In this document: positions 10,655-60,806 of the stretch, in pieces
How positions within the stretch are numbered: position 1 is the first letter of the stretch
Layout of the letters: every line of letters starts with the position of its first letter
From: Siphonodentalium dalli
Lineage: Eukaryota > Mollusca > Scaphopoda > Gadilida > Siphonodentaliidae
DNA: 64,000 nt
Assembly: GCA_032622095.1 (NCBI GenBank)
Contig: CP136067.1
Span: 122,423,030 to 122,487,029, forward strand
Reading direction: 5' to 3'
Position numbers and translations under genes: made by a program
The notes under the pieces: generated by a model
What the model saw: only the letters and a program-made list of their open reading frames with translations
The model's database searches: none
Told to the model about the DNA's origin: nothing

Positions 10655-10668
10655 GACAACAGTAGATT

Positions 10669-23000: not shown

Positions 23001-26000
23001 TGGCAAATTAAATTACATATTAATAATTTGGTTTGAGAACTCAATATAGTGCTCTTGCATGTTAACCTTGCCAGTCAGGGATGGAATTATATAATTACAT
23101 CCCGGGTCATCAGAAATAAAAACTAAAAATAAAATTCTCCCTCCCTTGTTGATTCCGAAAACAAATTGTCTGAGAATCAAATAATTTTTAATTTTGGCCT
23201 CATTAACCTATTTTTATTTCTGGATCATGAAAAAAAACAAGATATTGCTAGTTTTAATTTGAGGCTTGAAGATTATGTATCACTTTAAGAATAATCGAAA
23301 CAGAATTGTAGAATCATGAACTAGCACAAACCTGTTACACTATATTTTAATACAAAAACTATCGGTACACCAAATACCTAATTACCTAAGTTATCATACT
23401 TAACAAGCAATTTACTTAAGACAATTCATACCGACTTACGCTTTACTAAGTCATTTAGGCTTCCCTTGCCAAACTATAATCTTGTAATTAATCACCCCAA
23501 CTACTTTTATACAAAGCCACCATAAATGAAGGAGAACACAACATCTGTGACCCCTCATGCTGTGTCATACAAGTCGCACATACTGACCCATATATCGAGA
23601 CCAACACACCGGCGAAACACAGAATATAACTGGATGTTCCAACTAAGGACATTGTATCCAGAGGGCACAAACAGGGCAGACACCTTTTGGTGAATAATAA
23701 TAATATTAACCCTTTACCCAACAGAAGGGCCCTGTGCCAATGCATTCTCTTATATAATGCGAGTCGACCATAGGTCGCCTCGCATATATAAGAGAATGCA
23801 TTGGCTTAACACATTAAAAATTATAAAATTGTTAAAGAATGTAAGAAAAAATGGTAAAAAGTGTTAAAAAAGAATCTTTTTTAGGCCAATGCATTCTCTT
23901 ATATATGCGAGGCGACCTATGGTCGACTCGCATATATAAGAGAATGCATTGGCACAGGGCATAACTGTAACTATCACAATGTGGTCAATGAGCCGGTTCC
24001 AATGATATCCATATTTGTATGGTTCTATTGAGACAGACCGAAGATATTTTAGGCTGTTGAAGCTTTATTTGGCCGGTTTTGGCCGGTTTGTTGGGTAAAG
24101 GGTTAATAAATATATGAGCACAAACCTGAATCGTTTGAGGTGTAATCGGAGTATGTGAGGTAGATGTTTGATATGGAACTGTTTAGTAGCTGCAGTGTAT
24201 GTTCTTTCTGATGGACTCTGCTCTTTGCCTGGAAAAAAACACACACACAATTGTCCATGCGTCGTTGAAAAAGACACTTTCCTCATCAATACCTGGAGAG
24301 GCCCCTCAAAGGTTACACTGGTGTAAATAGGGTTCGGAGTGACATCTGGCGGATGCGGGAGGAATATATAGGAGAGAATAAAATAGACACTGGGCCCTGA
24401 TTGGTCAATAGCCTTGTGTGCTTTTCGCATAAAAAAAATCATCACACCTCTTCCCTATGATTTCCAGGTAAAATAACCATTGGCACAGGAATTAACCCTT
24501 TGTAGTGAAGTTTGAATTTTTTGGTGTGGTCTAAAATATGACAGTATTTTTTTATGCGGTTCTGACACTAGTTACGAAAACACAAGATTTAAAGGCGAAT
24601 TCCCTGCTAGACAGACATGATTTTTATTGTGTAAAAAGTTTCCCAAAATGTCAATTTTTCAGATTTAATGAAAATTTTGGACCCAACATTTATATTGCCA
24701 ACAGTATACGCTAAAACGTTAGCACTGAGGCCTATGGAAAACATTTACACCAGTGTAACCTAAACAAGACAGTCAAAGACTGTGGGGTCGCTCACCAGAC
24801 TGCAAAGACTGATAAGACTGGGACTCTGGAGACCATAACAGTCAGAACTTTTCATAATCACTTTAAAAGAAGTAGATCTAAACAGGATATGTGGATAGAG
24901 AGGCTTCATGTATGTAGATCGGTGAATATCTACTTTTAAATTACCAACTGTACACTACTGATCACCCCCCCCCCCCCCCTCCTCCAGCTCATGTCCCCTC
25001 TCCAGACTCCCAAGTCTTAGGTTGGAATCTCACAACCGACATCTCAAACTTTCTCAATTGTTGGAAATGTCCAATCTCACAAGCGCCTTTTTATAAAACT
25101 ATTTAGATATGTTTGAAGCCCAATTATCCATGGACCCAAAAACACCATATATGTATGTCAGATTAATCAGTCAGGTAGTTCCAAGGTAGATGTTTTAATG
25201 ATTTTATTAGACACAAAAGTGTTAAGTCCCCATAGCCCCGTCATTTCTTAACAGGTTTGCCTCATGTTAACAAATCTGAATCTCAGTCACTAAAGGATCC
25301 TCCATACTATATGTAAGCTAAATAGTCCAACGTCTCTTGAGAAGACATTTTAAGTATTACTATAGAGACATACAGTTATGTCCCTGGTCCCACCCTATTT
25401 AATCTGGTGACCCCATCTGAATAAATTTGAAACCCTATTTAAAACAAGTGACCCCATTTGAACAATTCTGAACTCCAGTCACCCAAGGACCCTTCATACC
25501 AAATATGAACCCATTCAACCTAATGGTACATGAGAAGAAGTCGTTTTTAAGAATTACTATGGAGGGCAAGAGTTATGGCCCTGGCTTCACAACCAATTGA
25601 CAGAGTGACCTCATTTGAACAAATCTGAATGTGAGTCACCTAGGGAACATCCACACCAAATATGAACCCATTCAGTCTTATGATCTAGAGAAGATGTTCA
25701 AAGAATTGTTGACAGATCGATGGACGGACAGACAGATGAACAGGTGACAGATGAGAAGTGATGACTATAGCTTCGTCTCAGGTGAGCTTAAAAATTACAT
25801 TTCATTGAACAAATCTGTAAATCCCCCAACACTGTGGGGACATCCCTGCAAGAACATGACATTATCTTATTATACCAGTAGCGTACAGCATAGATACAGG
25901 TAGTGTGGGTGGGGCAGAGCTAAATCTCTTACCTCTGCCCCTATTTGAACAAACATGAATCCCCATCTCTGATATCTATTCATCTAATAATTTTAAACAT

Positions 26001-35000: not shown

Positions 35001-38000
35001 TGACCTCACTGAGAAACTCTCCTTGGAAAAGTTTCTCTAATAAGCACTTCATTCCAGCTTTCTTCTTAGGTGTTACGATCGAGATTTCCCTCTCAGCTTT
35101 GTCAAGCAGGTCACTGAAAAAGAAGCAACGTATTCTGTAGGTACACAGTACCGCACTCGTATGTAATTGACTCACTTTGTCGCACAATTGGAACGACGTG
35201 TAAGGAAATTATGATGATACTAAGATGGAGGCGATATATATGTTAGCTAACAGCACACATGAGTGGTTCTGTCTCAATTCTGATGTACTGGGAGATATAT
35301 ACTAGCTATATTATTAAAAATTGCATTATGTTTAACCCTTCCATGACTGGAGCTTCCTGAAATTTTGTGAAAACCCTGTGCCAATGCATTCTCTTATATA
35401 TGCGTGTCTCCCATATGGAGCCTCACATATATAAAATATATAAGAGAATGCGTCAGCCTAACACTATTTACCTTGACCATGTTAGCCAGTGCATTCTCTT
35501 ATATATGCGAGGCTCCTTGTGGGAGACTTGCATATATAAGAGAATACATTGGCCTAACAATATTTACCTTGACCATGTTAGCCAGTGCATTCTCTTATAT
35601 ATGCGAGGCTCCCAATGCACTGGCTAACACCAACGCCAGTTGCACTGGCTGCACCAACGCATTATCCATCATGAAAGGCTTAAAATCTGTTCTCGAAGAA
35701 TACATTTCAATGTTTTAACAATGAAGCGACATACCAGAGAAATTCATGTGCGTCATGCTGTGTGTGACTTTTACACATTGGAATGCGTTTTCCGGCTGCC
35801 TTCACCAGAGCTCGTGGGCTGTAGTGTAACTTGCTCCCTGACCATAGTACACCAAACAGACGCTGCAGAGCTTCACATAATGACCTATAAAATACATGTA
35901 GTTCACAGTCAGTTTATGAGAAGATAAGTGACTGAGAACGTCAAGAAATATGCTTTATCTAGCTTTTTATGACAGTAAAATTTAGTTAAGATGAATGGAT
36001 TTATGAGTTGGACGTGTGCTTTCATCGATTCATCGGGAGGTGGTATGACCAACTGGTCGTCTTCCTACAACTCCAAAGAAGAAAAAAAATCATATTCCGA
36101 CTCTGAGCTATTCTCATGCAGACAATCTAGTATTTGGTTTTTCCAGATTAAGATTGTTTGAGGCTGATATGTATTTATTCAGATGGTTCTTAAACATATA
36201 GATGACTAAAATAACGATGACTGGAATAAAATATAAAATGACTGTGACTGATGAGATAGATATTATTACTGTTTTCAAATTCATACTTGCAATTCATTCT
36301 TTCAATTGGACTAAAAGTGACAAAAAGATTTATTTTTAGAAGAATTTCATAGAGTATGGGGTATCAACATTATTCCTCCATAAATGGATAAGAATCAAAA
36401 CAGCGAAGGTTTTTACATTTAACAGTATCTAGGTAAATATCAATCAATTCATCGATCACTTCACTTACTTTTCTTCAGCGCTGCCTTTAGTGGGTGAATC
36501 CTTCCACTGGACGAGAGATTTTGAGGGACTGCCGCCTCCGTTTAACCCACCAGTTTTATTCATCAGGGTGCTCCCTTGTTTAATGAGGTTCTGCAAGAGA
36601 AGTAAAACATTTGGTCTACCATCACAAACTCCAAACTCCATGCAACATTTTACCCACATTTGGTGGACTTCCGCGATATTAAGATATAAACTAAACAAGC
36701 AGAGCATCATGCCGCTCTTGTTAAGCACACAAAACAAATTTGAATAATTTCGTACCTTAAGTTTGGAAAGTCCCACCAGAACACAGAACTATATTGAAAA
36801 ACGGTGCGATTTGGTCAACACAAAAGTATAAATGCTCATGGGACACAATGTCGCGACAACACGTGTTGCAAGTCAAACACAAAAGTTCTAATTTGCTGCA
36901 ATTTTGACGAGTAGCTTGCAAAAATCGTCAACAAAACTATCGTTCTTATCCTCCATTCTGTCATTAAGTTTTTACTGCGGAAATTGTTCTCAAAGCACAT
37001 AGGAAATTTGACTTTCGGTTTTCACCATTTTGGCTGGAAAACTCGGCGCTAAATATAGAAACTACAGACTAGCATCCAGGCGGTGATAGAGTCAGAACAT
37101 CCAAACCAAATTTCATTGAGATTCGTCAACTGGAGGTGGAGATATTTGCTGAGACAGACAAAAAAACATTTCCAGATAAACAAAAATGAATAACTCGAGA
37201 ACGGAAAATCTGGAAAAAACGATTGAACACTCCGTTGAATGCCCTCATAGTACTGAACATCCAGACCAAATTTCATCAGATCCGACAACTGGTGTTAGAG
37301 ATATTTGCCCAGACGGATGGACGAATGAAAAAAAACGGAGGGCCAGATGTCCGGACTGACAGAGTCAATCCAGTATACCCCCATTCTCTTTGTGGTATAA
37401 AAACCAGGTTACTAAATAGTCCAAGGTTACTTACGTACTTAACCCTTTCATGACGGGAGCTGCGCTGGTACAGCATTAAAGATCCTGTTCCAGTGCATTC
37501 TCTTATATAAGCGAGTCTCCCATAGGGAGCCTTGCATATATAATAAAATGCACTGGCTTACAAGGTAAAGGTAAATATTGTTAGGCCAATGCATTCTCAT
37601 ATATATGCGAGTCTTCCATAGGGACGCTTGCATATAATATATGAGAAATGATATATAAGAGAATGCATTGGCACAGGTTTTTCGCAAAATTTCAGGAAGC
37701 TCCAGTCATGGAAGGGTTAAATAGGCCAAGGTTACTTACGAATTTAAACTGTACTCACCTCAAACACTTGCAAAGACCTCTCCTCATTAAAGCAGGAACT
37801 GATATTATGTTCACCACCATCAAGGTCAGGGAAACTCAAACACAAGAAAAAATCCCGGAACTCTTCCACGTGACTAAAAATAGAAAAATATTTGAAGTCT
37901 GTTCTGATGTATCATTATATGCGAGACAAATACTTTAACCCTTTCTATACTAAATGGATTCTCCATAAAAGTATACACTGGAATGGTCTATTATTGATTG

Positions 38001-41000
38001 GGGGGGGGGGGGGGGTATTCAGATAATAAAATTAGAAAAAAGACAAAAAAACAGAATGATTCATATTCATTGTCGTTTGTTGGACTTATTATCTGAACAT
38101 TTCCTAATGGAACTATGAGTATTTAGTATAGAAAGATAATGACAGAACATCAAAATAGGATAGCCATTACATACTGTGTTTCAAGTTGAATATTTTTTGC
38201 TAATTTGTGATAGAATAGGATAATTTATTTCCAAACAAGCCTGCAAATAGTGTGTCTGTAATTTGCAGAATGAGGTCCCCAGAGGGTGAATTTAGTGATT
38301 AGTGATGCTACCCTGCACCGCAGGCTAGCATCACCAAATTCACCCTCTGGGGGCCTCATTACGCTAGTCCTCATCTTCTGGGAAGTATCTATTGTCTCAA
38401 ATTAACATTGGTTTAGTTACTTTTTCCCTTCTGGGAAGTTTCTATATCCCCAAATTTGCAGAAGATAAAATGCATAACTGAGGTGCCCAATGGGTGAACA
38501 TCACCAACTTCAACTGGGGAACTTCAATCTGATCCTAGGTCTCCCATAACAGTTGAGGCCTAAACAGAATGTTTCCCCAAGGGTGAATTTGGTGATGCTA
38601 GCCTGCCTTGTGGGATAGCATCACTTAATTCACCCTCTGGGGACCTCATTCTGCAAATGACAGACACGCTATTTGCAGGCTTATTTCCAAATACACAGTG
38701 CTGTGGCTGTCAGAAACAGTAGAAATCAAAGCTGCATGGGTTTTGAGACAGTACAATTTTGTATTTTTTGGGGATTGGGTGGGATTCGAACGACGGCCCA
38801 TAATGATGAGCGCACCTTGCGACTCAAAAGTCCGACATCTATACCGCACGACCACTGAAGCGACCCCAAGAAAGGAAGCATAATTGGCTCCTGTATTTCG
38901 ACGTCACACTTAGGACACTATATGCTCATTTTAACGTCTCTGTGTTAGATATAAGGGAGATATTTGGCACAGCTGCAGGTTATATGCCAAATATATACCA
39001 TACATTAGAAATAGATGTTGTTCAATGCTCTGGTTGAGTCTTCAATTATAGGTTAGGTTACATCATAGAAGGTAGTCTATAGTTCATAAACATATTTATC
39101 AAGCACATGCCAGCGAAATGTCATATGGGCCATCCGGGTAAGTAATCATTTAGTAACCAAATGGTGTTATACTAATATATAGTCATATTACCTGAGTATT
39201 TGCAGTATTGAATTAATGTAGCAAGTGTTTCCAAGATTCCTCAGTCCAGTAACCCCTGGATATCGCTTTCTTTTCTTTCTTGAAACTTTCGGTGTCTCTT
39301 TTATACTCTCATTTTTCACCTTGCCTTTACTCTTTACCACCGTATTCTCTTTCTTGCTCTTGCTACCAGATTTTACAGTAGTTTTCACACTTTTGTCCTG
39401 TCTGCTAGATTTTACAGGAGTTTTCGCACTCTTGCTCTTTCTAGAAGGTTTTACAGGAGTTTTCCCACTCTTGTTTTTGCTTCCAGGTTTTACAATAGTT
39501 TTGTTCTTTCCGGGTTTTACAACAATTTTCTTGTTTTTGCTTGCAGGTTTCACTTTAGTTTTTTTGTTGTTGCTTCCAGATTTTACAGTCTTTTTCTTGT
39601 CTGTCTCTGCATTCGTAGCTGCTGTAGTTTTTTTGTCGTTACTTCCAGATTTGACAGTTTTTACAGTCTTTTTCTTGTCTGTCTCTGCGTTTGTAGCTGC
39701 TGTAGTTTTTTTGTCGTTACTTCCAGATTTTACAGTCTTTTTCGTGTCTGTCTCTGGGTTCGCAGCTGTTGTAGCTTTTATGTTGTTCTCAATTATTTTC
39801 TTTCCGTCGTCTTCATCTTTCATCTGAAAATATATTCAATTAATTTTAATTTATTTTCATATTAAGTCTTCACCCTAATATTCCAGCACAGATTCAATGT
39901 AGAACAAGTTCTATTGAGTTCCTGGACACAGGGATCAGCCTAGAGTATTAAATTAGCCCTTTACCCAACAAACCGGCCAAAAACGGCCAAATAAAGCTGC
40001 AACAGCCTAAATTATCATGGGTCTGTCTCAATAAAACCATACAAATATGGATATCATTGGAACCGGCTCATTGACCACATTGTGATGGTTACAGTTATGC
40101 CCTGTGCCAATGCATTCTCTTATATATGCGATTCGACCATAGGTCGCCTCGCATATATAAGAGAATGCATTGGCCTAAAAAAAAATTCTTACATTTTTTA
40201 ACAATTTTTATAATATTTTTATACATTCTTTGACAATTTTATCATTTTTAATATGTGTTAAGCCAATGCATTCTCTTATATATGCGAGGCGACCTATGGT
40301 CGACTCGCATATATAAGAGGATGCATTGGCACAGGGCCGCTCTGTTGGGTAAAGGGTTAACTGGGAGAAGTCATAAATGCTAAGTTTGATTTACTCTCTA
40401 ACATCACCATTTTGGGATCCAAGTTAATTACCGGTAGAATATATTTATGATATTCAATTTGTGTTGGGTTATTTAGTGTTGACTCTGAGATAAACATGGG
40501 TAATAATGGTTGTTGAACAGTTATGTCAACATGAAAAGATTTTTTGAAATGCCGCTTCAGTTATCAGAATCGATTAATTGCCCAAAAATAATGCTAACCA
40601 CAGTCCACTATAGTATAAATTTGCCCAAAACAATTTTATTAATCAACATTTTGTTCAACGAAATCTCAGCGGATTGTCAATAATCTGACAACACAATGCC
40701 ACATGATTTTAGAGTTATCCATCTTCATCCACAAGTTGGTCCGAGACCGTCAATTTGATGACTTTTTACCAGGCAATAAAAAAGTACACATCTCGAGAAA
40801 TAACAAATTTCAAAAATCGATATCTGATCACTCTGAGCTTTGATGGGTGGGTTCCTTGTATCGAATCAAATATTTTTTACCCCCGAAGCCAAAGAAATAG
40901 TAATTTGGGAGCATTAGTTTGAATTATGCATTGCTAAAATGTGATTATGTGATAAAAAGGATCTCAAATGAGTCCCAATTCTATAAAAAATTGATTAACC

Positions 41001-44000
41001 TCATCCACTAAATTTGATTCAAGCCTCGCTAAATCTCGGCTCGAATCAAATTTAGTACAATTGGTTAATACATTTCGCATAGAATTGCGACTCATTAGAG
41101 ATCCTCTATTTTTGCACTCAAGAAAGCATCTGGACGAAAGCTATACACCATGCGTTATTATTCCCCTTATCAAAATATAAAGCATGTTCAAGAATATAAA
41201 GGGAAATTGAGGTGCCAGAATATTGCTCAAAATCAATTTGTCCTGCAGGGTAAAAAGTCTTCAGTCCATGAAAGTCAAACATTTGAGATGTTGCTTTTAG
41301 ACAAACAGCTTGAGTTGCAGTCAAAAGAGGAAAGGGTAATTAAACTACACAGATGGCCCTGTCACTGGGCATATTTGGACAAGCTTGCTGAGTGAGTGGG
41401 AGTAACACTATGATTGTTAATTATAAAATAACAATTCTTCTTAGCAGACTTTCGATTTTTAATATGTGCCACACTTAGCCCAATCAATTTTAAATCTGCA
41501 GCAAGGCCAAACAAAAAAAGATATTTGATTCTCAGGCATTTTTTTAAAAATCAATGAGGGAGCGAGGGTTTTATTAAAAAACAAATTCTGCCCATAGACT
41601 TGCATAGTAAGCATGGGTTATTATACATTCCCAGGTCCAGAAAATGTAGGGAGAACTTTGTAATGGATATAAACTAATTTAATCTACCCGTACATCATAT
41701 AGGGATTACTTATAGCTGTAGAATGATATATATATATTGATATGATTTTAATATCGGCATAAAATGCCGCACAATCATTTTTAACAACATGCAGAACTAC
41801 ATACCGGTATCCAATTCATATAAAAATATGGAATGTAAATACAGTCGAAAGGAAAAGATCCTCCAATCTATCGTAGAAAGTCATGATTAACTTATTCTGC
41901 TGACTAATTACAGACTGTATATGTACCGCAATGGATAATAGACAATAAAAATAAAATAACCATTATAAATTTTTTCGATGCAGCGATGCCGGAGAATCAA
42001 AACCCTTTTTTGATGCCTGAGAATCAAAACCCTTTTTTCCAAGCATTCTAAAATGGTTCCAGCTTGTGGAATAACTGATGTTCCTGTCTAGAATTTAAAC
42101 TGATTTAATAAAAGTTATTTTCGGACATTTATAACCAAAACTTAATGATAGGGGAGCAAGAATGGAGTGTGGAAAACTCCAAGGGTGTACTCCATTTCTG
42201 GTTATTTGGTTAACTTAATGAGTGGAATTGCTAGCTCATGGAAATGGATCGATACTCATTATCTGAATAGTTCCCTCAACAAATAGGGCTCTTTCTGCAC
42301 TTTTATTATCTGTTGTCTGCTATCATCACCTTAACATCCCTCGAAATTAATAATAGATATTCTGTTGTACACTTTTCAACTGACTGGGATAATCCATTTA
42401 ATATAGAAAGGGTTAATATTATATAAGAAATGAACAGTAGATTAAATGTCATCATGGGATTTTGACCACCAAAAAATTCAGCAATTTACATAATACAGTT
42501 TGTTGAATTTTATTGCAGTCCCAACCAAGCCTGTATTTAGTGTCAGTCCCAACCAAGCCTGTATTTAGTGTCAGTCCCAACCAAGCCTGTATTTAGTGTC
42601 AGTCCCAACCAAGCCTGTATTTAGTGTCAGTACCAACCAAGCCTGTATTTAGTGTCAGTCCCAACCAAGCCTGTATTTAGTGTGCCTGTACTTTGTAGAA
42701 TGAGGTCCCCAGAGGGTCAATTTAGTGATGCTATCCCACACAGCAGGCTAGCATCAACAAATGCACCCTCTGGGAACCTCATTCTGCTTAGTCAGTCCTT
42801 CCCATGAGGAAGATTCTGCGAGAGCATTTAGTTGCTCCAGCAATTCAGAAGACGAGTGTAATATTGCACTCATAATATAATCGTAAGTCAAGTTTTTCTC
42901 AAACAAAATGTCATTATGGGATAGTACATTATGTCCAGATACACTTTAACCCTTTCAGTGCCAGGGGCCTATCTCATCGGCCCTAATTTATGGTCTGTAA
43001 AATCGGCCCTAAAAAAATAAAAAAATAAAAAACCTTTTTTTTTCTTCAGATTTAAAAAAATTTATTAAAAATTGTAAAAAATAATAACAAATGATGAAAA
43101 ATTGTTAGGCCAATGCATTCTCTTATATATGCGAGTCGACCTATGGTCAACTCGCATATATAAGAGAATGCATTGGCACAGGGTATATGGGTTGATACAA
43201 AAATCGGACCTGGCACTCAAAGGGTTAAAATGCCCATAATTTAAATGAGATGGGAAGGGATCTAAATAAACCATAAAATAGTTCAATGTTGAATCAACAA
43301 TTACAGACACCAATTTTAGCAAGAGGGTGAATTTTAGCACCCGTGAATTGAAATTTACGAATGTGTACGGGTGCGAGAGTAAATGCTCCGGCCTCCTGTG
43401 AAGGGCTGTTCTTAGGGCTCATCTTCTGGGAAGCAACTATAGTCTAAAATTAACATTGTTTTCAGTTATTTTTTCACTTCTGTTCAGTTTCTATATCACC
43501 TAATGTTTGCAAAAGTTAAATGCATAATTGAGGTGACTAATGGGCGAATATCACCAAATTCAACTGGGGAACTTCAATCTGATCATTGGTCTCCAATAGC
43601 AGTTTAGGCCGAAGCAGAATGAGGTTCCCAGAGGGTGAATTTGGTTAGCATCACAAAATTCACCCGCTGGGGACCTCATTCTGAAAATGTCAAACACACC
43701 AAATCAAGGCTTGGTCACAACCCATGACAACCATTTGTTAATTATACCATATTTACTTAACACCTTAGGATTGTTTTATATCATCCACTCATTAACCCTT
43801 TCAGGGTTAAAACACAAATTAGTTTTTTCAGTTTGTTTTAAAGGCCCACATAATTTTCGAGTCACCAAATATTTTTTTTATAGTGCCTTGATATATGGTT
43901 TTAATAAACAATCAAACATAAAATATGATTAAAATGCTATAATTCATCACCATTGAAAAGTCTGTGTCTCAGAAGATGCCCATAGAGAAATAGAAAACAG

Positions 44001-47000
44001 ATGAAATCCCATAAAAAGATTCCCCCGTTATGACTCCAAGAATGCAACAGAATTCAAACTAAAAATAACATTTTCAAATAGAAGGGGAATAACTCTATCT
44101 TTAAAATATAGTTATTCCCACTCCATTGAAAATATTACACTTTGCACAACAAAACCAGATGAAAATTAACCACAAAAACACATAGGTAACTAAAGAATAA
44201 CAACTTCACAGTTTATTACACTGAATTAGATGATAATACAATGTTTTGGAGTTTAGGGTTGAAACGATTAATCGACTAGTCATAGACGACGCTGAAATGT
44301 CAGAACGTCGACTCTGAATTTTGCCGTCGACTAGTCGGAACATAGTGTATTAGTTCCATGTATAATGTTTTCAAGATCGATTCCGACATAAACGGTGTTA
44401 ACTGCGCGTAAGATACGGTAAGTATAACGTTTGGTGGCACCCGGAATTGACAGTGTTACTAGTATAGACACACACGGTGACCCGACTATTAATCGAAAGA
44501 ATGAAGTTGACAACACAATGTCTCACTCGTCGTTTGAGGTCAAAGACATCACTGCGACATGATGGCAATGATTGACGCGGCTTTATCGTTTGTCGGAGAC
44601 CGCTTTGATCTAGACACTGTATATTTCAATTGATCAATTGAAGGTCGCTTAAGGTGATGTCATTGTTGCTACCGTATATAAATGATACTGACATTAAGAA
44701 CTGGCTATCGTATTCTACAACATAGCCTATTCTATAGGGCGTATTTAGTCGGAACATTAACATTTTATAGTGACACCGCTCGGCACCGGTTTATTGGTGA
44801 TCACGTGACTAAACAAAATCTCGAATACGCAGATATTAAATTTAAAACCTGTATAAATGATCGAGTTTCTAATCATTATCCACCACATGTCTAATTATAT
44901 AATTACATTCAGTGTGTTGGATAAATATCAAGATGTTTACAGTATTATTTCCCAAATAAATTGGTGTCTATGCAGGGAAATGCGCTACGCAATAGACCGC
45001 CATTGCATCAGTCATCAGTGTACGCCATGTACGATGAATTTTCCGTACCATGTTATGTTTGAAAGTTTTGATATCGGGTACCGACTAGTCGACGTAACGC
45101 GACTTTTGGGTCTCGACTAGTCGACTCTGAAATTCACTAATCGTTTCAACACTATTGGAGTTTCCTCTTTCAAATGGTATATATTAATATGGCATATATT
45201 TTATATAACTAATCTGGGGGTTCGAAAATTAAGTGGAGCTTTAATGTGTTTTATTCAGATTATATATGCATGGGTTGTAGTACCGGTATGATATGTATAC
45301 AGAAAACTATGATGGTATACTGGATATATATACAGCATGTAGGGAGCCTCGCATATATAAGAGAATAAATTGGCCTAACAATATATACCTTGACCTTGTA
45401 AGCCAGTGCATTCTCTTATATATGAGGCTATCTATGGGAGACTAGACTCGCATATACAGTAATGCCCTAAATAATTAACTCCTTAACCACAGCAGAATGA
45501 TGGGTAATTTTTCAGGATTTAGTTGGAAATATGGCTTGTTGCCATTCATTGGAAAACTCTCAGTGAGAGCTTTCCAATGAATGGCAACAAGCCATATTTC
45601 CAACTAAATGAAAAATTACCCATAATTCTGTTGTGGTTAAGGAGTCGATTACTTAGGGCTTTACTTATAAGAGAATGCACTGGCACAGTATCTTTAATGC
45701 TGCACCAGCAGTGCTTCCATCATGAAAGAGTTTAATAATTACCTCAGGAGACGCTATCGGCTCGGAACTGTTAACCTCCTGAGGACTCGAGACTGTTTCC
45801 TTGATAATTACCTCAGGCGACGCTATCAGCTCGGAACTGTTAACCTCCTGAGGACTCGATACCTCAGGCGACACTATCAGCTCGGAACTGTTAACCTCCT
45901 GAGGACTCGATACCTCAGGCGACGCTATCAGATCGGAACTGTTAACCTCCTGAGGACTCGAGACTGATTCCTTTTGCTTCCTTTTGACTTCCTTTTGTGC
46001 AAGGCTCTTCTTCCATGTCTTTTTTCGTGGCATCTGGAACAAAAAAAGTGTTCAATATCATTTCTTTAATATAAAGTTATTATAAAATATTGTGTACAGT
46101 ATGTGTTTTCTTGAACTCATCCAGGTTATGGCTACGCGTCTCCTCCAATACGACTTTTCACCACAACCTGGACAGGTACAAGAAAACACATACTGTACAC
46201 AACATTGTACATGTATAATGACATTTTTATTATCCATCTGTATGTTTGTCCAAATTAGGAAATAAAATTTTTGTCTAATTACAGGATGTATAAATGTACT
46301 CTTCCCTGTGAAGTGGTAAGCGAGTTGGGTGTCTCACCCCCTCATCTCACCCCCTCATCTCACCCCCCTCAATTTTGTCCAAAGATTCAATAGTGAGAAT
46401 CTTGGAGCATCCAGCTGGAAATTCAGTAGAATTTGACATTTCCGACTTTCAGATTCCTTGACGTCACCGAGTCCCGATAACTTTTATAAAAGTCATATTG
46501 GACTCGATCAAGTCCAATATGACTTTCGGGGGTCCAATATGACTTTTTCCCTAATTATCATGTGTCGGCTTTTGCCCAATCAGAAATAGTGTTAGTTAAG
46601 GGGTGGATAATAATATTTAATATACAGTTGAATTTTTTTTTAGAAGAGCCATTTGTCATTTAGGACTGTACTGGTATTAAACCAATTCTTTACTAAATGG
46701 ACTCTCCTATTCAATGATAAATATATACAATGGAATGGTCTAAATATAATTTATCTGGAGGGATGAACAGTCTGTTAACCCTTTCATGATGGGAGCTGTG
46801 CTGGTGCAGCATTAAAAACCCTGTGCTAGTGAATTCTCTTATATACACGAGTCTGCCATGGAGAGCCTCACATATGTAAAAGAATGCACTGGCTTACAAG
46901 GTCGATGGTAAATATTGTTAGGCCAATGATTCCCTTATAAATGCGAAGCTCGCTGTGTGAGAGATTTGCATATAGAAGAAAATGCATTGGCACAGGGTTT

Positions 47001-48228
47001 TCGCGAAATTTCAGGAAACTCCAGTCATGGAAGGGTTAACCCTTTGAGTGCCAGGTCCGATTTTTGTATCAACCCATATACCCTGTGCCAATGCATTCTC
47101 TTATATATGCGAGTCGACCATAGGTCGCCTCGCATATATAAGAGAATGCATTGGCCTAACATTTTTTTTTTTTTTTTTTTTTTTTTTACAATTTTTTACA
47201 ATTTTAATAATTTATTCTTATATTCTTTAACAGACTTATTTTGTAGGTTTAGGGCCGATGAGATCGGCCCCTGGCACTCAAAGGGTTAAATATGTATCAG
47301 GAAACTCCAGTCATGGAAGGGTTAAATATGTATTTGTTTCAATGAAAACTCACTCAAGCACATCCTTGGTTATCAGAAATTATCAATATTATACAGTAAT
47401 GCCCTAAATAATCGACTCCATAACACATCAGAATTATGGGTAATTTTTCAGGATTTAGTCGGAAATATGACTTGTAGCCATTCATCAAAAAGCTCTCAGT
47501 GAGAGCTTTCCAATGAATGGCAAGAAGCCATATTTCTGACTATATCCTCAAAAATAACCCATAATTCTGCTGTGGTTAAGGAGTTGATTATTTAGGGTAT
47601 TACGGTATTTGATGTATAGTGTTTTCTCATATGATGGTTTGGGTATTTTCGTTGGTTTCTAGGAGTCGTATAACTAATGGCCTAAATACTGTGCTCTGTA
47701 ATATGCTATCTAACCATCAGCAGGCAAATGGCAGAGTTTAGTGTGCCTGTCATTTGCAGAATGAGGTCCCCAGAGGGTGAATTTAGTGACTTGCTATCCC
47801 ACACAGTGGTCTAGCATCACCAAATTAACCCTCTTGGGACCTCATTCTGCATGGCCTCATCTGCGATAGGATTCCCAAACGGTGAATATTGTGATTATGG
47901 CTTGTTGCCATTCATCGGAAACTCTCCGATTAATGGCAACATGCCATATTTCCAACTAAATCCTGAAAAGTTACCCATAATTCTGCTGTGGTTAAAGAGT
48001 CGATTATTTAGGGCATTACTGTATCTATTATGTGTAAATTCTCAATTAATTTAATATATATATTTGAATATAGGACTTGATATTGGGGGGATTCACTTTC
48101 CTGAGGAGTCTATAATAGGCCTTACAAAGTTAGAGTATTTTATGAATAGAAATTACGGATGCTGATACCTGTTTGCTTCGACGTCTCAGCGTTTGCTTCC
48201 ACAGTATAGATTTTTTTCTTCTTGGCAT
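19009..48228 (-). CDS. USP44/USP49-like: Ubiquitin-specific protease, USP44/USP49 type (whole gene, 12 exons)
   Basis: A cysteine protease of the C19 (USP) family that would remove ubiquitin from substrates, with nuclear chromatin as the inferred site. The spliced reading frame joins exons at 48228-48169, 46033-45743, 39823-39192, 37873-37759, 36590-36469, 35884-35735, 35113-35005, 33987-33861, 30435-30367, 24228-24126, 21774-21587 and 20012-19009. All introns are GT-AG, phases match at every junction, and the total of 2970 nt encodes 989 aa. Family evidence: GNTCYINS, HDAHEFL, VTCLSC, YCEKC, LRLHLKRFR, SGHYTAYCFN, WVHCNDSKV and KAQAYILVYV, the last three closest to USP44/49. Lys/Ser/Thr-rich tails flank the catalytic core. 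The family's N-terminal zf-UBP finger was not found. The first two exons are less certain than the other ten. Confidence 0.85.
20420..21480. repeat. Tandem ~170 bp repeat block filling USP intron 11
   Basis: About five units with the order 'AAAATCCAAGATGGC', a CAGCCATGTT segment, 'CTCCCATCTAGAGGTCACC', 'GATCGGATGAGGGATG', 'CCTGTAGGGTG'. It closes with GACGGATGCAAGATGGAC and AACTTTACAAAGTAAAGTTG. Related pieces occur near 4500, 5390 and 50550. Confidence 0.7.
21587..21774 (-). CDS. USP44/USP49-like: USP exon 11: catalytic histidine box
   Basis: Entered through TCTCACAG in phase 2 and left at GCAG|GTATTT in phase 1. It begins RWSGRARREKIGTHVAF, the strand that follows the LRLHLKRF motif in USP44/49. 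It then encodes VVRHHGRSFTSGHYTAYCFN, in which the His of SGHYTAY is the catalytic base. An in-frame run past the donor is intronic. Confidence 0.92.
21986..22367. mobile_element. TTAA element, CCCTTTACCCAAC-end family
   Basis: TTAA at both sides; ends CCCTTTACCCAACAAACCGG and GTTGGGTAAAGGG. Two shared hairpin modules (TTATATATGCGAGTCGACC type) flank an AT-rich spacer with TTCTTACATTCTTTAACA. It lies in USP intron 10. Confidence 0.85.
22374..22905. mobile_element. CCCTTTCATG-family fragments
   Basis: 22374-22675 carries a hairpin pair and a right end (CAATCATGAAATGG-TTAA). 22820-22905 repeats a right-end fragment (CGCATATATAAGAGAATGC to CCAGTCATGAA). The first begins exactly at the right TTAA of the preceding element. 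Confidence 0.5.
22906..23705. other. USP intron 10, unique AT-rich sequence
   Basis: No exon, repeat family or RNA gene could be supported. A short phrase of diverging ACTTA-type words near 23380-23460 is simple sequence. Confidence 0.3.
23710..24102. mobile_element. TTAA element, CCCTTTACCCAAC-end family, inverted
   Basis: The same family as 21986-22367, in opposite orientation, with TTAA at 23706-23709 and 24103-24106. It ends only 24 bp from the donor side of USP exon 10 (24126). The two copies form a ~1.3 kb-spaced inverted pair inside one intron. Confidence 0.85.
24126..24228 (-). CDS. USP44/USP49-like: USP exon 10: LRLHLKRF motif
   Basis: A strong pyrimidine tract and TTCCAG precede 24228. 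Enters in phase 1 and leaves in phase 2 at TTCAG|GTTTGT. It encodes GKEQSPSERTYTAATKQ then HILRLHLKRFR, the conserved USP strand preceding the His-box exon. The segment after the zinc site is shorter and unlike vertebrate USP44 until the ATKQF motif. Confidence 0.92.
24308..24765. repeat. Weak inverted-repeat unit in USP intron 9
   Basis: GGTTACACTGGTGTAAAT near 24308 recurs inverted near 24746 as ATTTACACCAGTGTAACC. The piece between includes a TTAACCCTTTGTAGTGAAG motif at 24494 resembling other TTAA-family ends, but no partner end was found. Confidence 0.35.
25060..26340. repeat. Tandem repeat blocks with GGAC-type tails
   Basis: Diverged ~150-190 bp units carry ATTTGAACAAATCTGAAT, a 'GAGTCACC(T/A)AGG' segment and 'ACCAAATATGAACCCATTCAG'. 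One block ends near 25790 (GATGGACGGACAGACAG then CTTCGTCTCAGGTGAGCT) and a second near 26330. A related block lies at 28770-29170. Confidence 0.6.
26405..27329. mobile_element. hAT-type element, 925 bp, exact 8 bp duplication
   Basis: Ends TAGGGCTTCACGGTAT and its inverse (ATACCGTGAAGCCCTA). CAGCCAAG lies immediately outside both ends (26397-26404 and 27330-27337). Subterminal CGCGATATGACTAAATA occurs at both ends; it is in the same orientation in each, so that inner part is not inverted. No transposase motif is visible, so it is non-autonomous. Confidence 0.85.
27338..27753. mobile_element. AAGCCTG-family MITE, diverged
   Basis: Both hairpins and the central spacer are recognisable (GGTGGCGTATGACAGTATG replaces the usual phrase). 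The left end is eroded to GTGAATTTAGTGTGTCTG. It directly abuts the hAT element's right target duplication. Confidence 0.65.
27754..28259. other. USP intron 9, AT-rich, no feature
   Basis: Unique sequence followed by a strongly A/T-only stretch (about 28155-28250). No exon or RNA gene is seen. Confidence 0.3.
28260..28738. mobile_element. TTAA element, AGGTACTCAATC-end family
   Basis: TTAA at 28256-28259 and 28739-28742; ends AGGTACTCAATCCGAT and GGATTGAGTACCT. The inner arms extend the inverted repeat (TGGCTTCGGGGGTC / CCCCCAAAGCCAAAG), giving a partly palindromic 479 bp element. Confidence 0.75.
28770..29170. repeat. Tandem repeat block with GGAC tail
   Basis: Two or three ATTTGAACAAATCTGAA units like those at 25.1-25.8 kb, closing with GGACGGACGGATGGACGGAC and CTTCGTCTCAGGTGAGCT. 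Confidence 0.65.
29238..29687. mobile_element. AGGTACTCAATC-family element, left end eroded
   Basis: The right end GGACTGAGTACCT-TTAA is good. The left end reads TTAA-AGATGCATTATCC instead of the consensus, a variant also seen at the right end of the copy at 34604 and near 40930, so it may be an alternative terminus. Confidence 0.65.
29757..29825 (-). pseudogene. Fossil duplicate of the USP zinc-binding exon 9
   Basis: Strongly similar to exon 9 (30435-30367) through its 3' half: the minus strand encodes VVEELDGN then HYCEKCNG, and keeps a good donor (AATG|GTGAGC). The 5' half has decayed. The codon aligned with exon 9's Met is TGA, and the acceptor CCCCGCAG is replaced by sequence with no usable AG and no pyrimidine tract. 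It lies ~540 bp downstream of the functional exon in the same intron, so it is best read as a dead tandem exon duplication. Confidence 0.75.
30155..30308. mobile_element. CAGTAATGCCC-family MITE, shortened centre
   Basis: Both TA-flanked ends are intact, but the central GGAAAGCTCTC hairpin is deleted; the arms meet at GGCTAAATATGACTAAATCC. It lies 59 bp beyond the donor of USP exon 9. Confidence 0.8.
30367..30435 (-). CDS. USP44/USP49-like: USP exon 9: second zinc-binding Cys pair
   Basis: The acceptor CCCCGCAG and donor AATG|GTGAGT enclose 69 nt, phase 1 to phase 1. It encodes DMLKKFTAVEKLDGNIYYCEKCN, equivalent to the [23 protein letters not shown] segment of USP44. The CEKC pair, with VTCLSC of exon 8, would hold the structural zinc of the USP fingers. 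Confidence 0.9.
30593..31106. mobile_element. ~510 bp TIR element in USP intron 8
   Basis: The left arm GATCATGCCATGAATCTCTA and its inverse near 31085-31104 continue inward through CCAGTACAAAACC and AACCTTATAAAG. The arm also resembles 7285-7360. An 89-codon frame inside has no recognisable motif. Confidence 0.65.
31200..31406. mobile_element. CAGTAATGCCC-family MITE
   Basis: A ~207 bp palindrome with both ends and TA flanks; the right end carries a small insertion (GGGCATGCATTACTG). Confidence 0.8.
31607..32173. mobile_element. Two CTATACTAAA-family fragments
   Basis: 31607-31786 and 32005-32173 are in opposite orientation and share TTTGTTGAACTTATTATCTG and CTCCCACTCAGTTATA phrases. They end AGAAAGG-TTAA and AACAAAGGG-TTAA respectively. 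They may be the two halves of one element split by 31787-32004. Confidence 0.55.
32180..32990. other. USP intron 8, unique sequence
   Basis: A short direct repeat of CACCTTGACCTAGACACGGG occurs near 32203 and 32233. The minus frame at 32826-32602 has no splice support or recognised motif and is not called. Confidence 0.35.
32990..33852. mobile_element. CCCTTTCATG-family element split by a ~630 bp insert
   Basis: The left part (CATTGATTGGAGCTTCC, hairpin 1, half of hairpin 2) stops near 33139. The right part resumes near 33768 with GCGAGACTTGCATATATAAG and ends CCGCCATGAAATGG. The insert contains no recognisable family; its terminal bases were not resolved. Confidence 0.5.
33861..33987 (-). 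CDS. USP44/USP49-like: USP exon 8: first zinc-binding Cys pair
   Basis: A T-rich tract and CTTCAG precede 33987. Phase 0 in, phase 1 out at ACAG|GTACGA. Encodes VTCLSCGSKSTCFEPFTDLS then LEFPEQFQ, a close counterpart of [20 protein letters not shown] in USP44/49. The donor is only 9 bp from the end of a TTAA-family MITE (33852). Confidence 0.92.
34230..34600. repeat. Tandem repeat block with GGAC-type tail
   Basis: Two or three units with GGCCATAACTCTGGTGAAAAT and CCTGTATTTTG phrases, ending GTGAACAGACGGACGCCCC. A TTAA element is inserted immediately after the tail. Confidence 0.6.
34604..34974. mobile_element. AGGTACTCAATC-family element
   Basis: TTAA-AGGTACTCAATCTGATC at the left; the right side ends with the variant CGCATTATGCATCT-TTAA. 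Contains CCAAAGAAATAGTAATTTAG and the Leu/Asn-rich shadow frames typical of the family. Confidence 0.7.
35005..35113 (-). CDS. USP44/USP49-like: USP exon 7: helix after the QDAHEF box
   Basis: The acceptor TTTTTCAG and donor GTGAG|GTCAGT enclose 109 nt, phase 2 to phase 0. Encodes CDLLDKAEREIS then LLEKLFQGEFLSE, equivalent to ELLDKIQRELE and IFHGQLLSQ of USP44. Confidence 0.9.
35336..35679. mobile_element. TTAA element with triplicated hairpin, in USP intron 6
   Basis: TTAA-CCCTTCCATGACTGGAGC to CATCATGAAAGGC-TTAA. Between are three hairpin-module segments separated by two copies of CTAACA(C/A)TATTTACCTTGACC, one more than usual, so an internal unit was duplicated. It occupies over half of the 621 bp intron. 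Confidence 0.75.
35735..35884 (-). CDS. USP44/USP49-like: USP exon 6: HDAHEF box
   Basis: TTTTATAG|GTCATT to CTCTG|GTATGT, 150 nt, phase 2 to phase 2. Encodes KSLCEALQRLFGVLWSGSK, then SPRALVKAAGKRIP and HTQHDAHEFL. It corresponds to the KSLCHELHTLFQVMWSGKW ... QQDAQEFL region of USP44/49; the substrate-binding QQDA Gln is His here (QHDAHEF). Confidence 0.9.
35885..36468. other. USP intron 5
   Basis: 584 bp of AT-rich sequence without a recognisable repeat or exon; one of the few introns free of the window's transposon families. Confidence 0.4.
36469..36590 (-). CDS. USP44/USP49-like: USP exon 5: Gly/Ser-rich linker
   Basis: CTCTTGCAG precedes 36590; donor GAAAA|GTAAGT. 122 nt, phase 0 to phase 2. 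Encodes NLIKQGSTLMNKTGG, LNGGGSPSKS and WKDSPTKGSAEE: a hydrophilic insertion between the Cys-box and QDAHEF segments, where USP44 also carries a variable linker. Identity rests on splice sites and phase rather than motif. Confidence 0.8.
37070..37400. repeat. Tandem repeat block with GGAC-type tail, in USP intron 4
   Basis: Two units share 'GAACATCCA(A/G)ACCAAATTTCAT' and 'GATATTTGC(T/C)(G/C)AGAC'. It ends GACGGATGGACGAATG and CCAGATGTCCGGACTGACAG. Confidence 0.55.
37443..37716. mobile_element. TTAA element, CCCTTTCATG-end family, full length
   Basis: TTAA-CCCTTTCATGACGGGAGC to CTCCAGTCATGGAAGGG-TTAA, 274 bp, with both hairpin modules. It is the cleanest copy of this family in the window, 42 bp from the donor of USP exon 4. 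Confidence 0.85.
37759..37873 (-). CDS. USP44/USP49-like: USP exon 4: after the catalytic Cys helix
   Basis: CTATTTTTAG precedes 37873; donor TTTGAG|GTGAGT. 115 nt, phase 2 to phase 0. Encodes SHVEEFRDFFLCLSFPDLDG and NEERSLQVFE; the start continues the catalytic helix LQILSHVEEFRDFFL, matching LQVLSHLLIFRECFL in USP44. Confidence 0.9.
37939..38135. mobile_element. TTAA element, CTATACTAAA-end family
   Basis: TTAA-CCCTTTCTATACTAAATGG at 37935 and TATTTAGTATAGAAAG at 38120-38135 (right TTAA decayed). A poly-G run lies at 37999-38015. Confidence 0.7.
38236..38682. mobile_element. AAGCCTG-family MITE, full length, exact 9 bp duplication
   Basis: ATTTCCAAA occurs immediately on both sides (38227-38235, 38683-38691). 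Ends CAAGCCTGCAAATAG and CTATTTGCAGGCTT. Two hairpins and the full spacer are present. Confidence 0.85.
38771..38867 (-). ncRNA. tRNA-like sequence, degenerate
   Basis: On the minus strand an A-box-like CAGTGGTCGTGCGG and a B-box GTTCGAATCC are correctly ordered ~60 nt apart, with GGGG and CCCC at the outer ends. The TpsiC stem does not pair, and the anticodon arm (GACT/AGTC with a 4-base loop) is irregular. It is more likely a tRNA pseudogene or the head of a tRNA-derived SINE than a working tRNA. Confidence 0.35.
39192..39823 (-). CDS. USP44/USP49-like: USP exon 3: Lys/Thr-rich arm and catalytic cysteine box
   Basis: ATTTTCAG precedes an ATG at 39823; donor CTCAG|GTAATA in phase 2. The first ~180 residues are basic low complexity: imperfect ~22-residue repeats of SGSNDKKTTAATNAETD type, then K/S/P/V-rich repeats. 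An NLS-like SRKKRKRYP follows, then GLRNLGNTCYINSILQIL, whose Cys is the predicted nucleophile. The opposite-strand 200-codon frame is a shadow. The initial ATG could also serve as an alternative start. Confidence 0.9.
39957..40356. mobile_element. TTAA element, CCCTTTACCCAAC-end family
   Basis: CCCTTTACCCAACAAACCGG to CTGTTGGGTAAAGGG-TTAA; the left flank is TTAG. Both hairpin modules and the TTCTTACATTTTTTAACA spacer are present. Third copy inside the USP gene, ~134 bp upstream of exon 3. Confidence 0.85.
40440..41110. mobile_element. 18.1 kb-type repeat with nested AGGTACTCAATC element
   Basis: 40440-40536 and 40938-41110 together match 18140-18600 (TTGTGTTGGGTTATT, GAGATAAACATGGGT, then a palindrome of GATCTCAAATGAG and CTCATTAGAGATCC). 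The middle, 40537-40937, is an AGGTACTCAATC-family copy with worn ends. Confidence 0.55.
41111..42240. other. USP intron 2, no feature seen
   Basis: AT-rich unique sequence. One short direct repeat (GAGAATCAAAACCCTTTTTT near 41992 and 42020) is present. Frames near 41150-41390 overlap on both strands and lack motifs or splice context. Confidence 0.35.
42250..42411. mobile_element. CTATACTAAA-family element, right part
   Basis: ACTCATTATCTGAATAGTTCC to TATAGAAAGGG-TTAA; the left terminus is missing. Confidence 0.55.
42516..42683. repeat. 28 bp tandem repeat, six copies, made of a transposon end
   Basis: The unit is CAGTCCCAAC followed by CAAGCCTGTATTTAGTGT (two adjacent parts, 28 bp). Copies start at 42516, 42544, 42572, 42600, 42628 (one substitution) and 42656. 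The last runs straight into an AAGCCTG-family MITE whose terminus it duplicates. Confidence 0.9.
42666..43713. mobile_element. AAGCCTG-family MITE interrupted by other DNA
   Basis: The left hairpin (to about 42790) and the spacer plus right hairpin (about 43405-43713) belong to one element. The left flank reads GTCCCAACC and the right flank GTCACAACC, an 8-of-9 match for a target duplication. The interruption holds the TTAA element 42950-43224 and unique sequence. Confidence 0.65.
42950..43224. mobile_element. TTAA element, CAGTGCCAGG-end family, short form
   Basis: TTAA-CCCTTTCAGTGCCAGGGG to CGGACCTGGCACTCAAAGGG-TTAA. It contains one shared hairpin module (TTATATATGCGAGTCGACC). Confidence 0.8.
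43842..45240. mobile_element. TTAA element, AGGCCCACATAATTTTCGA ends, carrying a hAT insert
   Basis: TTAA-AGGCCCACATAATTTTCG at the left and TTCGAAAATTAAGTGGAGCT-TTAA at the right. The inner left portion (ATGATTAAAATGCTATAATT, AAGAATGCAACAGAATTC) is matched by the related copy at 63028-63489. The hAT element 44254-45154 sits inside it. Confidence 0.65.
44254..45154. mobile_element. hAT-type element, 901 bp, exact 8 bp duplication
   Basis: Ends TAGGGTTGAAACGATTAATC and GATTAGTGAATTT...-type inverse closing CGTTTCAACACTA. TTGGAGTT lies on both sides (44246-44253 and 45155-45162). Subterminal CGACTAGTCGA palindromes occur near both ends. No transposase frame is seen. Confidence 0.85.
45341..45731. 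mobile_element. CCCTTTCATG-family element carrying a nested MITE, abutting a splice donor
   Basis: Left truncated (begins GGGAGCCTCGCATATATAAG). It contains two hairpin modules and ends CTTCCATCATGAAAGAG with TTAA at 45732-45735. That TTAA lies at +8 to +11 of the intron following USP exon 2. Confidence 0.7.
45457..45665. mobile_element. CAGTAATGCCC-family MITE nested in a hairpin module
   Basis: CAGTAATGCCCTAAATAATT to ATTACTTAGGGCTTTACT. It interrupts the TATATAAGAGAATGC arm of the host element at a TA, so removing it restores the host palindrome. Confidence 0.8.
45743..46033 (-). CDS. USP44/USP49-like: USP exon 2: 17-residue repeats
   Basis: TTTTTTGTTCCAG precedes the ATG at 46033; donor CCTGAG|GTAATT; 97 codons in phase 0 at both ends. 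It starts MPRKKTWKKSLAQKEVKRKQ, very basic, then four copies of SSPQEVNSS(E/D)LIASPEV-type repeats (51 bp units), with six extra residues (IIKETV) before the last. The function of the repeats is unknown. Membership of the USP gene is inferred from strand, matching phase and splice sites, not homology. Confidence 0.6.
46092..46205. repeat. Inverted repeat just upstream of USP exon 2
   Basis: GTGTACAGTATGTGTTTTCT near 46093 is mirrored by AGAAAACACATACTGTACAC near 46180; the inner arms pair ATCCAGGTTATGG loosely with ACAACCTGGAC. A small foldback element. Confidence 0.65.
46779..47035. mobile_element. TTAA element, CCCTTTCATG-end family
   Basis: TTAA-CCCTTTCATGATGGGAGC to CTCCAGTCATGGAAGGG-TTAA, both hairpin modules. 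Its right TTAA (47036-47039) is also the left TTAA of the next element. Confidence 0.8.
47040..47285. mobile_element. TTAA element, CAGTGCCAGG-end family, short form
   Basis: CCCTTTGAGTGCCAGGTCCG to CCCCTGGCACTCAAAGGG-TTAA; one hairpin module then a ~28 bp poly-T run. After its right TTAA a 30 bp copy of the neighbour's right end (CAGGAAACTCCAGTCATGG) appears again, ending in another TTAA near 47318. Confidence 0.8.
47394..47605. mobile_element. CAGTAATGCCC-family MITE
   Basis: Full palindrome with several mismatches between arms; TA flanks. Confidence 0.8.
47730..48021. mobile_element. AAGCCTG-family fragment joined to a CAGTAATGCCC half-MITE
   Basis: Left hairpin GAATGAGGTCCCCAGAGGG ... 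GGGACCTCATTCTGC, then family spacer to about 47894. The sequence then switches to the palindrome family from GATTATGGCTTGTTGCC to GGGCATTACTG-TA. Confidence 0.65.
48169..48228 (-). CDS. USP44/USP49-like: USP exon 1 candidate: start codon exon
   Basis: ATG at 48228 follows an in-frame TAG 18 nt upstream. It encodes MPRRKKSILWKQTLRRRSKQ and stops at AACAG|GTATCA in phase 0, which joins in frame to exon 2 (also opening MPRKK). The 20 residues are strongly basic. Support is limited to frame, donor and the MPR(R/K)K resemblance. A possible acceptor (GACATAG) just before it would allow an upstream non-coding exon. Confidence 0.5.
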
Positions 48229-56130: not shown

Positions 56131-56383
56131 CAAGCCTTGAAATAGTGAGCCTGTCATTTGCAGAATGAGTTTCCCAGAGGGTGAATTTAGTGATGCTATC
56201 CCGCACAGCGGGCTAGCATCACCAAATTCATCCTCTGGGAACCTCATTCTGCTAAGGCCTAAGCAGAATGAGGTCCCCAGAGGGCGAATTTGGTGATGCT
56301 AGCCCACTGTGCGGGATAGCATCACTAAATTCACCCTCTGGGGACCTCATTCTGCAATGACAGGCTCACTATTTCAAGGCTTG
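56131..56383. mobile_element. AAGCCTG-family MITE, compact two-hairpin form
   Basis: CAAGCCTTGAAATAGTG to CACTATTTCAAGGCTTG. The two hairpins meet at CTGCTAAGGCCTAAGCAG with no long spacer; flanks GGTTCCAAG and GTTCCATGG are similar. Confidence 0.8.
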
Positions 56384-57870: not shown

Positions 57871-57940
57871 TGCAGGTTATATTATTCATTTGGAGAAATG
57901 TTCAGGTGATAACAATAAACCAAGAGTGCCTGTGCACACT

Positions 57941-58229
57941 TTCTATACTGAAATGAATTCTCTCAATCATTTATAAAAGTATACAGTGGAATGGTTTACT
58001 GTTCATTTGGAAGGATTTTCAGGAAAAATAAGATTTTAGAAAAACAAGCGGACGACAATACAAGTACATAAAGAGTCCTATTTATCGAAGGAAATGTTCA
58101 GATAATACCATAAGTTCAACAAATGACCTATTGTTGAACTTATTATCTGAACATAATCTGAGGGAAATGTTCAGAAAATACCGTAAGTTCAACGAATGAC
58201 ACATCAATGAGTATTTAGTATAGAAAGGG
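57941..58229. mobile_element. CTATACTAAA-family element with internal duplication
   Basis: CTTTCTATACTGAAATG to TATAGAAAGGG-TTAA. The AAATGTTCAGATAATAC(C)ATAAGTTCAAC segment appears twice near 58090 and 58150. Confidence 0.65.
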
Positions 58230-59386: not shown

Positions 59387-59603
59387 CAGTAATGCTCTAA
59401 GTAATCGACTTCTTAACCACAGCAGAATTAAGGGTAACTTTTCAGGATATAGTCGGAAATATGGCTTGTTGCCATTCATTGGAAAGCTCTCCCCGAGAGC
59501 TTTCCGATGAATGGCAACAAGCCATATTTCCGACTAAATCCTGAAAAGTTACCCATAATTCTGCTGTGGTTAAGAAGTCGATTACTTAGAGCATTAATTA
59601 CTG
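59387..59603. mobile_element. CAGTAATGCCC-family MITE
   Basis: Full palindrome with CAGTAATGCTCTAAGTAATC ends; the central hairpin is GGAAAGCTCTCCCCGAGAGC; TA flanks. Confidence 0.85.
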
Positions 59604-59736
59604 TACAACCATCTGCAACAAGTGTGTATTTCAAGGCCCACTTATTGTTCGAATGCCCAGATTACATTATTCCATATTATATACCATTTGCCATTTTGGA
59701 AGAGGAACCAACAAAATATATATTCCACCAGAATAA

Positions 59737-60005
59737 CCCCGCTGGACAAAACAAGTGTCCATTGGCACCACGGTGTATTTGCCGTTCGGCCGTGGTGTCA
59801 GAGTTTGTAACTGAAGTTGAGCACCGCGGCCGAACGGCATGTACACTCGGCCGAACGGCAAGTACACCATGGCTGAAAGGCAACTACCCTCGCTGCCGTA
59901 GTTAACTGTAGTTAGCCGGTGGAGCTGCGGTGTAGTTGCATTTCGGCCGCGGTGGCAATGCTAATCGCACCGCAGTTAAGTGGACACTTGTTTTGTCCAG
60001 CAGGG
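59737..60005. mobile_element. GC-rich TTAA element, CCCTGCTGGACAAAAC ends
   Basis: ATAA-CCCCGCTGGACAAAACAAG to TTGTTTTGTCCAGCAGGG-TTAA, 269 bp. The interior has repeated GCCGTTCGGCC and GCCGAACGGC words, far more GC and CpG than its surroundings. Frames on both strands here are by-products. Confidence 0.75.
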
Positions 60006-60009
60006 TTAA

Positions 60010-60640: not shown

Positions 60641-60641
60641 A

Positions 60642-60806
60642 CAGTAATGCTCTAAATAACCGACTCCTTAACCACAGCAGAATTATGGGTAACTTTTCAG
60701 GATTTAGTCGGAAATATGGCTTCTTGCCATTCATCGGAAAGCTCTCACTGAAAAGTTACCCATAATTCTGCTATGGTTAAGGAGTCGATTATTTAGAGCA
60801 TTACTG
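60642..60806. mobile_element. CAGTAATGCCC-family MITE, one inner arm deleted
   Basis: The left arm is complete to GGAAAGCTCTCACTG, then joins GAAAAGTTACCC of the right arm; both ends and TA flanks are present. Confidence 0.8.

Follow-up and report, generated by a model that had tools for sequence, protein, structure and literature searches.

Three families of short TTAA elements, here called A, B and C, carry different ends around a common palindromic core in the window, the 64,000-nucleotide stretch of Siphonodentalium dalli DNA that we analysed. Judged by the sequences of cores and tips, ends are exchanged around the core. The modules of B and C intermix at 98% mean identity, and the ends of different families resemble each other like shuffled sequence in 12/12 comparisons. 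A, B and C are likely to be non-autonomous piggyBac-type MITEs, each family with its own terminal repeats and all with a common core that consists of a single palindromic module or of two; the sample behind this assignment is 12 complete elements from one 64-kb window.

The elements and their palindromic module

The first-pass annotation described an element at 39957–40356 and three named end types around a common core. The element was found as described, and all three end types are real: A, B and C carry the module, and the tips of module-bearing elements read CCCTTTCATGAC, CCCTTTACCCAACA (B) or CCCTTTCAGTGCCAGG. The 39957–40356 element (plus strand) belongs to family B and consists of a long end, a module, an AT-rich spacer, an inverted module and a short end. 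Exact 14-bp terminal repeats, CCCTTTACCCAACA, are present at either tip, flanked by TTAG and TTAA. The module adjoining the long end (40107–40173, plus strand) is a 67-bp palindrome with CCCTGTG facing outward; it is separated by the spacer (40174–40262, plus strand) from the inverted module adjoining the short end (40263–40329, minus strand).

In the module, CCAATGCATTCTCTTATATATGCGAG and its reverse complement enclose a 15-base centre, and the whole forms a near-perfect palindrome of ~67 bp with CCCTGTG facing the element end. Each module is itself palindromic, and paired modules are inverted relative to each other. Both modules of the 39957–40356 element fold as near-perfect hairpins (-34.4 and -36.1 kcal/mol, z -12.8 and -13.2, DNA parameters). 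Among the seven modules folded with these parameters, z ranges from -12.8 to -15.7 in four B/C modules and from -6.2 to -8.8 in three A modules.

Twelve elements in the 64-kb window have both ends (6 A, 3 B and 3 C). Family A bears two different ends on one element, CCCTTTCATGACGGGAGCTGCGCTGG... and CCCTTCCATGACTGGAGCTTCCTGAAATTTTGCGAAAA (the latter designated A'), with ~20 bp in common. Family B has a long end (134–144 bp from tip to core) and a short end (~21 bp). Family C carries CCCTTT(C/G)AGTGCCAGG at either tip and a single module. The two other B elements, at 21986–22367 (plus strand) and 23710–24102 (minus strand), have TTAA on either side, and the former is nested in the arm of a family A module. 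C elements with one module each are located at 42950–43224 (minus strand, module 43110–43176) and at 47040–47285 (plus strand, module 47088–47154), the second of these lying in the right-hand TTAA of the A copy at 46779–47035. Downstream of it (47286–47325), 36 bp of the adjoining A end and TTAA flank are tandemly duplicated. In a long C element (16465–18014, plus strand), the 5' arm and centre of the module are replaced by an unrelated sequence of ~1.1 kb. The replacing stretch (16514–17640) has AACCGG motifs repeated near both ends and looks like another insertion.

A clean inverted module pair is present in 3/3 complete B and 3/6 complete A elements. The A elements at 37443–37716 (with two different ends), 46779–47035 and 15634–15889, all on the plus strand, have two modules each. 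The modules of the remaining three complete A copies are deleted, rearranged or extended: one module is largely deleted at 6717–6938 (plus strand), the modules are rearranged at 8537–8777 (minus strand), and an extra tandem module is present at 35336–35679 (minus strand), where the right end was set by eye. Two further A-related copies fall outside the set of complete elements, one hit by the B insertion (21930–22525, plus strand) and one a truncated element at 1960–2450 (plus strand), which combines an A-type end with a B/C-type module centre and an expanded AT-rich spacer. Core sequence, defined as one or more module arms with ≤7 mismatches, is kept in 12/12 complete elements, two of which (A 6717 and C 16465) retain a single arm only.

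TTAA flanks 9 of the 12 complete elements on both sides; in the remaining three, one of the two flanks deviates by one base. CCCTT is found at 20 of their 24 tips, with the right end of the 35336 element taken at 35679. The TIRs are 14 bp and exact in B, ~16 bp in C and ~20 bp and imperfect in A; the piggyBac criteria given in PMC2872659 are a CC[C/T]T motif at the tips and a TIR length of ~12–19 bp. With the same choice of end at 35679, 11 of the 12 complete elements measure 222–400 bp; the remaining one is 1550 bp long and contains an insert. The elements are short, non-coding, bounded by TIRs and present in several copies, as is expected for MITEs, and the TTAA duplication together with the CCCTTT tips points to the piggyBac type.

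No transposase domain was detected in the 23 ORFs scanned, and the window contains no closed ORF above 354 aa. A Pfam search for transposase remnants in the seven ORFs of the long C element returned just two chance-level matches (E 0.033 and 0.067). The tips of each family would be cut and joined in trans by its own piggyBac-like transposase. A short palindrome was sought near every tip and is clear at the C right end only, where a perfect 19-bp palindrome is matched by 1 of 300 shuffles. At the other ends, 39 (B long), 42 (A), 163 (A'), 293 (C left) and 300 (B short) of 300 shuffles are as good.

The first-pass annotation put the number of module copies at over twenty. A 19-nt core occurs 23 times at ≤3 mismatches (0.01 in shuffles), in agreement with that count. 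TTATATATGCGAG occurs 48 times at ≤2 mismatches (2.17 in shuffles), and the 26-nt half-module has 58 matches at ≤8 mismatches (0.55 in mononucleotide shuffles). A covariance-model search finds 23 module loci (E≤0.01, strands merged), 21 of which had served to build the model. The module alignment comprises 21 modules and excludes incomplete ones: a remnant at 6755–6806, a partial module at 45403, single arms at 2413, 8581, 8705, 8876, 17642, 22398, 22835, 33777, 35582, 45348 and 45658, and weak 8-mismatch half-module matches at 20874, 46836 and 57964. A recognisable A, B or C end lies outward of 22/23 outer cores. The one exception (22507), perhaps a truncated copy of A, is bordered by unrelated sequence. 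The outer core boundary, CCCTGTG or CCTGTG, is constant beside five different end sequences. Exact pattern scans of viral contigs with 22 bases of the half-module and with a free-loop hairpin, and of a prokaryote genome collection with 21 bases of the half-module, returned nothing, and absence says little in either collection.

A fourth TTAA-type family, D, has CCCTTTCTATACTAAAT-like tips (9574–10264, 37939–38137 and 57937–58229) and a subterminal motif, TTCAGATAATAA, in several copies. No module arm was found in these three elements, whose ends were paired by eye with looser tip matches; TTAA is present on both sides of one of the three.

The window also contains minus-strand pieces resembling one ubiquitin carboxyl-terminal hydrolase gene (Pfam UCH) at 39188–39835, 35707–35913 and 21450–21794, the first scoring slightly below the curated cut-off. 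Between pieces of this gene lie several A and B elements (21986–24102 and 35336–37716), which are therefore probably in its introns. A fold-back repeat is found within an A module at 45460–45655, with similar sequence near 4850, 57400 and 59400–60760. Inverted repeats at 10529–10794, 14933–15378 and 56158–56357 probably belong to a single family (CAGAATGAGGTCCCCAGAGGGCGAATTT...) that recurs in the window. Nearly perfect tandem arrays occupy 42509–42683 (6.3 copies of a 28-bp unit) and 45809–45961 (three copies of a 51-bp unit).

Histories of core and ends

Modules have a mean identity of 0.990 within B and of 0.970 for the two C copies; within A the means span 0.76–0.82. Between B and C the mean is 0.980 (range 0.955–1.000), and the C module C47036 equals the B module B21982_L in 67/67 columns when indels outside the reference columns are ignored. 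The similarity of B and C extends into the AT-rich spacer (83–86% over 136–147 columns, module included). B and C are mingled in the 21-module tree, which splits them from A with an ultrafast bootstrap of 92. Beyond CCCTTT, none of the 12 comparisons between ends of different families rises above the level of shuffled sequence (25–199 of 200 shuffles as good). The left and right ends within one family match in 3/3 cases (0/200 shuffles as good).

If A, B and C were one family whose ends simply evolve faster than the core, they would be expected to have CCCTTT, TTAA and the core in common, as they do. Such divergence is rejected, since the B and C modules are 95.5–100% identical yet their ends are no more alike than shuffles. 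Copies of the B long end also differ by just 1.4–3.5% from their own consensus, and we consider this explanation extremely improbable. The first-pass annotation had proposed that ends were swapped around a conserved core, or that the core moved between families. This proposal stands: core and ends have different histories in this window, and the core, far from missing in most members, is present in all complete A, B and C elements.

The truncated 1960 element appears to be a linking form between A and B/C. Its partial module (2002–2059) follows an A-type end, yet falls on the B/C side of the module tree, and its B/C-type centre borders an AT-rich repeat spacer resembling that of B and C; this placement uses a 58-bp partial module and the spacer. 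The B element at 21986–22367 is inserted at a TTAA within an A module arm, and the A module reads on when the B element is taken out. In the simplest history, an old A lineage would have produced a variant in which the centre was new and the spacer longer, and the core of this variant would then have been captured by B and C ends. The core would have passed to B and C via a form like the 1960 element, possibly by recombination or template switching during the repair of element excisions. The direction from A to B/C is suggested by the greater divergence of A, on the basis of few copies.

Between the A-end consensus, taken from 4 modules, and the B consensus, taken from 6, there are six differences, which form exactly three compensatory pairs, an outcome seen in 0/200,000 random placements of a control that places changes singly and leaves room for a single multi-base event. 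Two of the three changed pairs are adjacent, beside the loop, and one template-switch event could leave both. C47036 is identical to the B consensus; in C42946, two positions of the centre are different from B. The strict-majority A' consensus (6 modules) has one additional unpaired CpG transition, and shows two compensatory pairs against B (69/200,000) and one against A (2,757/200,000). Support from individual copies is weaker. Across the whole alignment, paired cells and double-change cells beat all 500 shuffles, and the covariation score is 0.122 compared with 0.085 ± 0.008 in shuffles (0/500), a score that is inflated by kinship among the copies. The number of pairs with double changes (160/500 shuffles as good) and of pair types (181/500) is not unusual across the whole alignment.

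Compared with the mean difference between arms of different modules, the two arms of one module differ less in 9 of 12 A modules. They differ more in the other three (A35332_Ap, A46775_Ap and A8540_int). Family A copies differ from their consensus by 6–22% in modules and 2–24% in ends, and CpG sites are changed in 14/48 cells as against 77/746 elsewhere; these decay figures leave out the 1960 element and take the A' consensus with GCGAG instead of the strict-majority GCAAG. The palindrome thus appears to be kept in active lineages and not in resident copies. Either selection for a dyad binding site or template switching would result in a kept palindrome. The latter was proposed in PMC8794818 as a source of multibase compensatory changes in RNA genes.

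Possible roles of the core

That the core is the selected part, which the first-pass annotation suggested as a possibility, is hypothetical. Modules within A are no better conserved than ends. At lower confidence, the outward-facing CCCTGTG palindrome may serve as a putative subterminal protein-binding or architectural site that helps to pair the ends. On the present evidence, we give this accessory role about the same probability as that of a mere passenger. The distance between tip and core is variable (~21 as against 134–144 bp) and the C core is found at one end only, which would be odd for a required pairing site. As a passenger, the core would have been captured by chance in a chimera and spread by active ends, its palindrome maintained by template-switch correction at replication and not by selection. 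This account, to which we assign a substantial probability somewhat short of even, is compatible with exchanged ends. It agrees with A modules decaying as much as A ends, with CpG decay that is faster, as under neutral decay, and with the two adjacent compensatory pairs near the loop, which could stem from one template switch (PMC8794818). It sits less well with the retention of core sequence in every complete element and with the same outer boundary beside five different end sequences. A stronger role, in which the core is a portable selfish cis-acting cassette that boosts several piggyBac transposases, moves between TIR families and has its symmetry selected by a dimeric DNA-binding protein, seems unlikely to us.

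The constant boundary would also be expected if the core were a mobile element in its own right and had inserted into TTAA elements. By eye, target duplications are not seen at the core borders, and all outer cores except the one at 22507, perhaps a truncated A copy, adjoin an A, B or C end; we regard an independent element as improbable. Retention of the core as a transcribed hairpin RNA, a source of small RNAs, would fit the stable folds of the seven modules. Any palindrome folds, though, the A copies carry mismatches, and Rfam has no match to the module at gathering scores, leaving a hairpin RNA with similarly poor odds. A passenger and an accessory subterminal site are the readings between which we make no firm choice.

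Relation to known elements

The layout, for which the first-pass annotation knew of no described element, is already known from the coral CMITEs; the core sequence and its palindromic nature differ. According to Wang et al. 2010 (PMC2872659), the CMITE families of Acropora are TTAA/CCCTTT MITEs with different TIRs and one conserved internal region, which the authors suggest acts in transposition. Like A, B and C, they have a TTAA duplication, mostly CCCTTT tips, several TIR families and a single highly conserved internal region. Against the module, the 60-bp consensus of the CMITE core reaches a local score of 7 on either strand, and 337 and 369 of 500 shuffles do as well, so a similarity between the two cores was rejected. 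While the core of A, B and C is a 67-bp near-perfect palindrome, the CMITE core folds no better than shuffles (-11.0 compared with -10.0 ± 2.4). CMITEs are ~100 bp long. The core described here frequently comes as two inverted copies on either side of an AT-rich spacer. No other TTAA family of this layout was found among the matches listed in a search of open-access text, and a repeat-library entry for the core is possible.

According to PMC7351741 and PMC11707139, short near-tip palindromes of piggyBac and piggyBat are bound by the C-terminal domain of the transposase; piggyBat carries three of them, with the innermost at bp 107–120 of the left end. The piggyBac superfamily members described there have TTAA and asymmetric ends in common with A, B and C. 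Their subterminal palindromic sites are ~14–19 bp long, the first at bp 17–19 of the left end, whereas the module measures 67 bp and lies ~21–144 bp from the tip. As the module is longer than these sites and one C end has its own 19-bp palindrome near the tip, we do not claim the module as a site for the C-terminal domain. The MER6/V-domain composite MITE (PMC6887750) likewise carries a conserved domain along with other parts of different origin. It combines a SINE domain with mariner ends, unlike TTAA families with a common core.

The origin of MITE families and the reasons for the spread of some of them are an open question, and the elements described here allow core and ends to be distinguished. 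The recent chimeras, the apparent linking form and the compensatory changes in the palindrome make it testable whether the internal module or the TIR drives the success of a MITE. The three families also add a second case, whose core is different, to the pattern that was left unexplained in corals in 2010 (PMC2872659).
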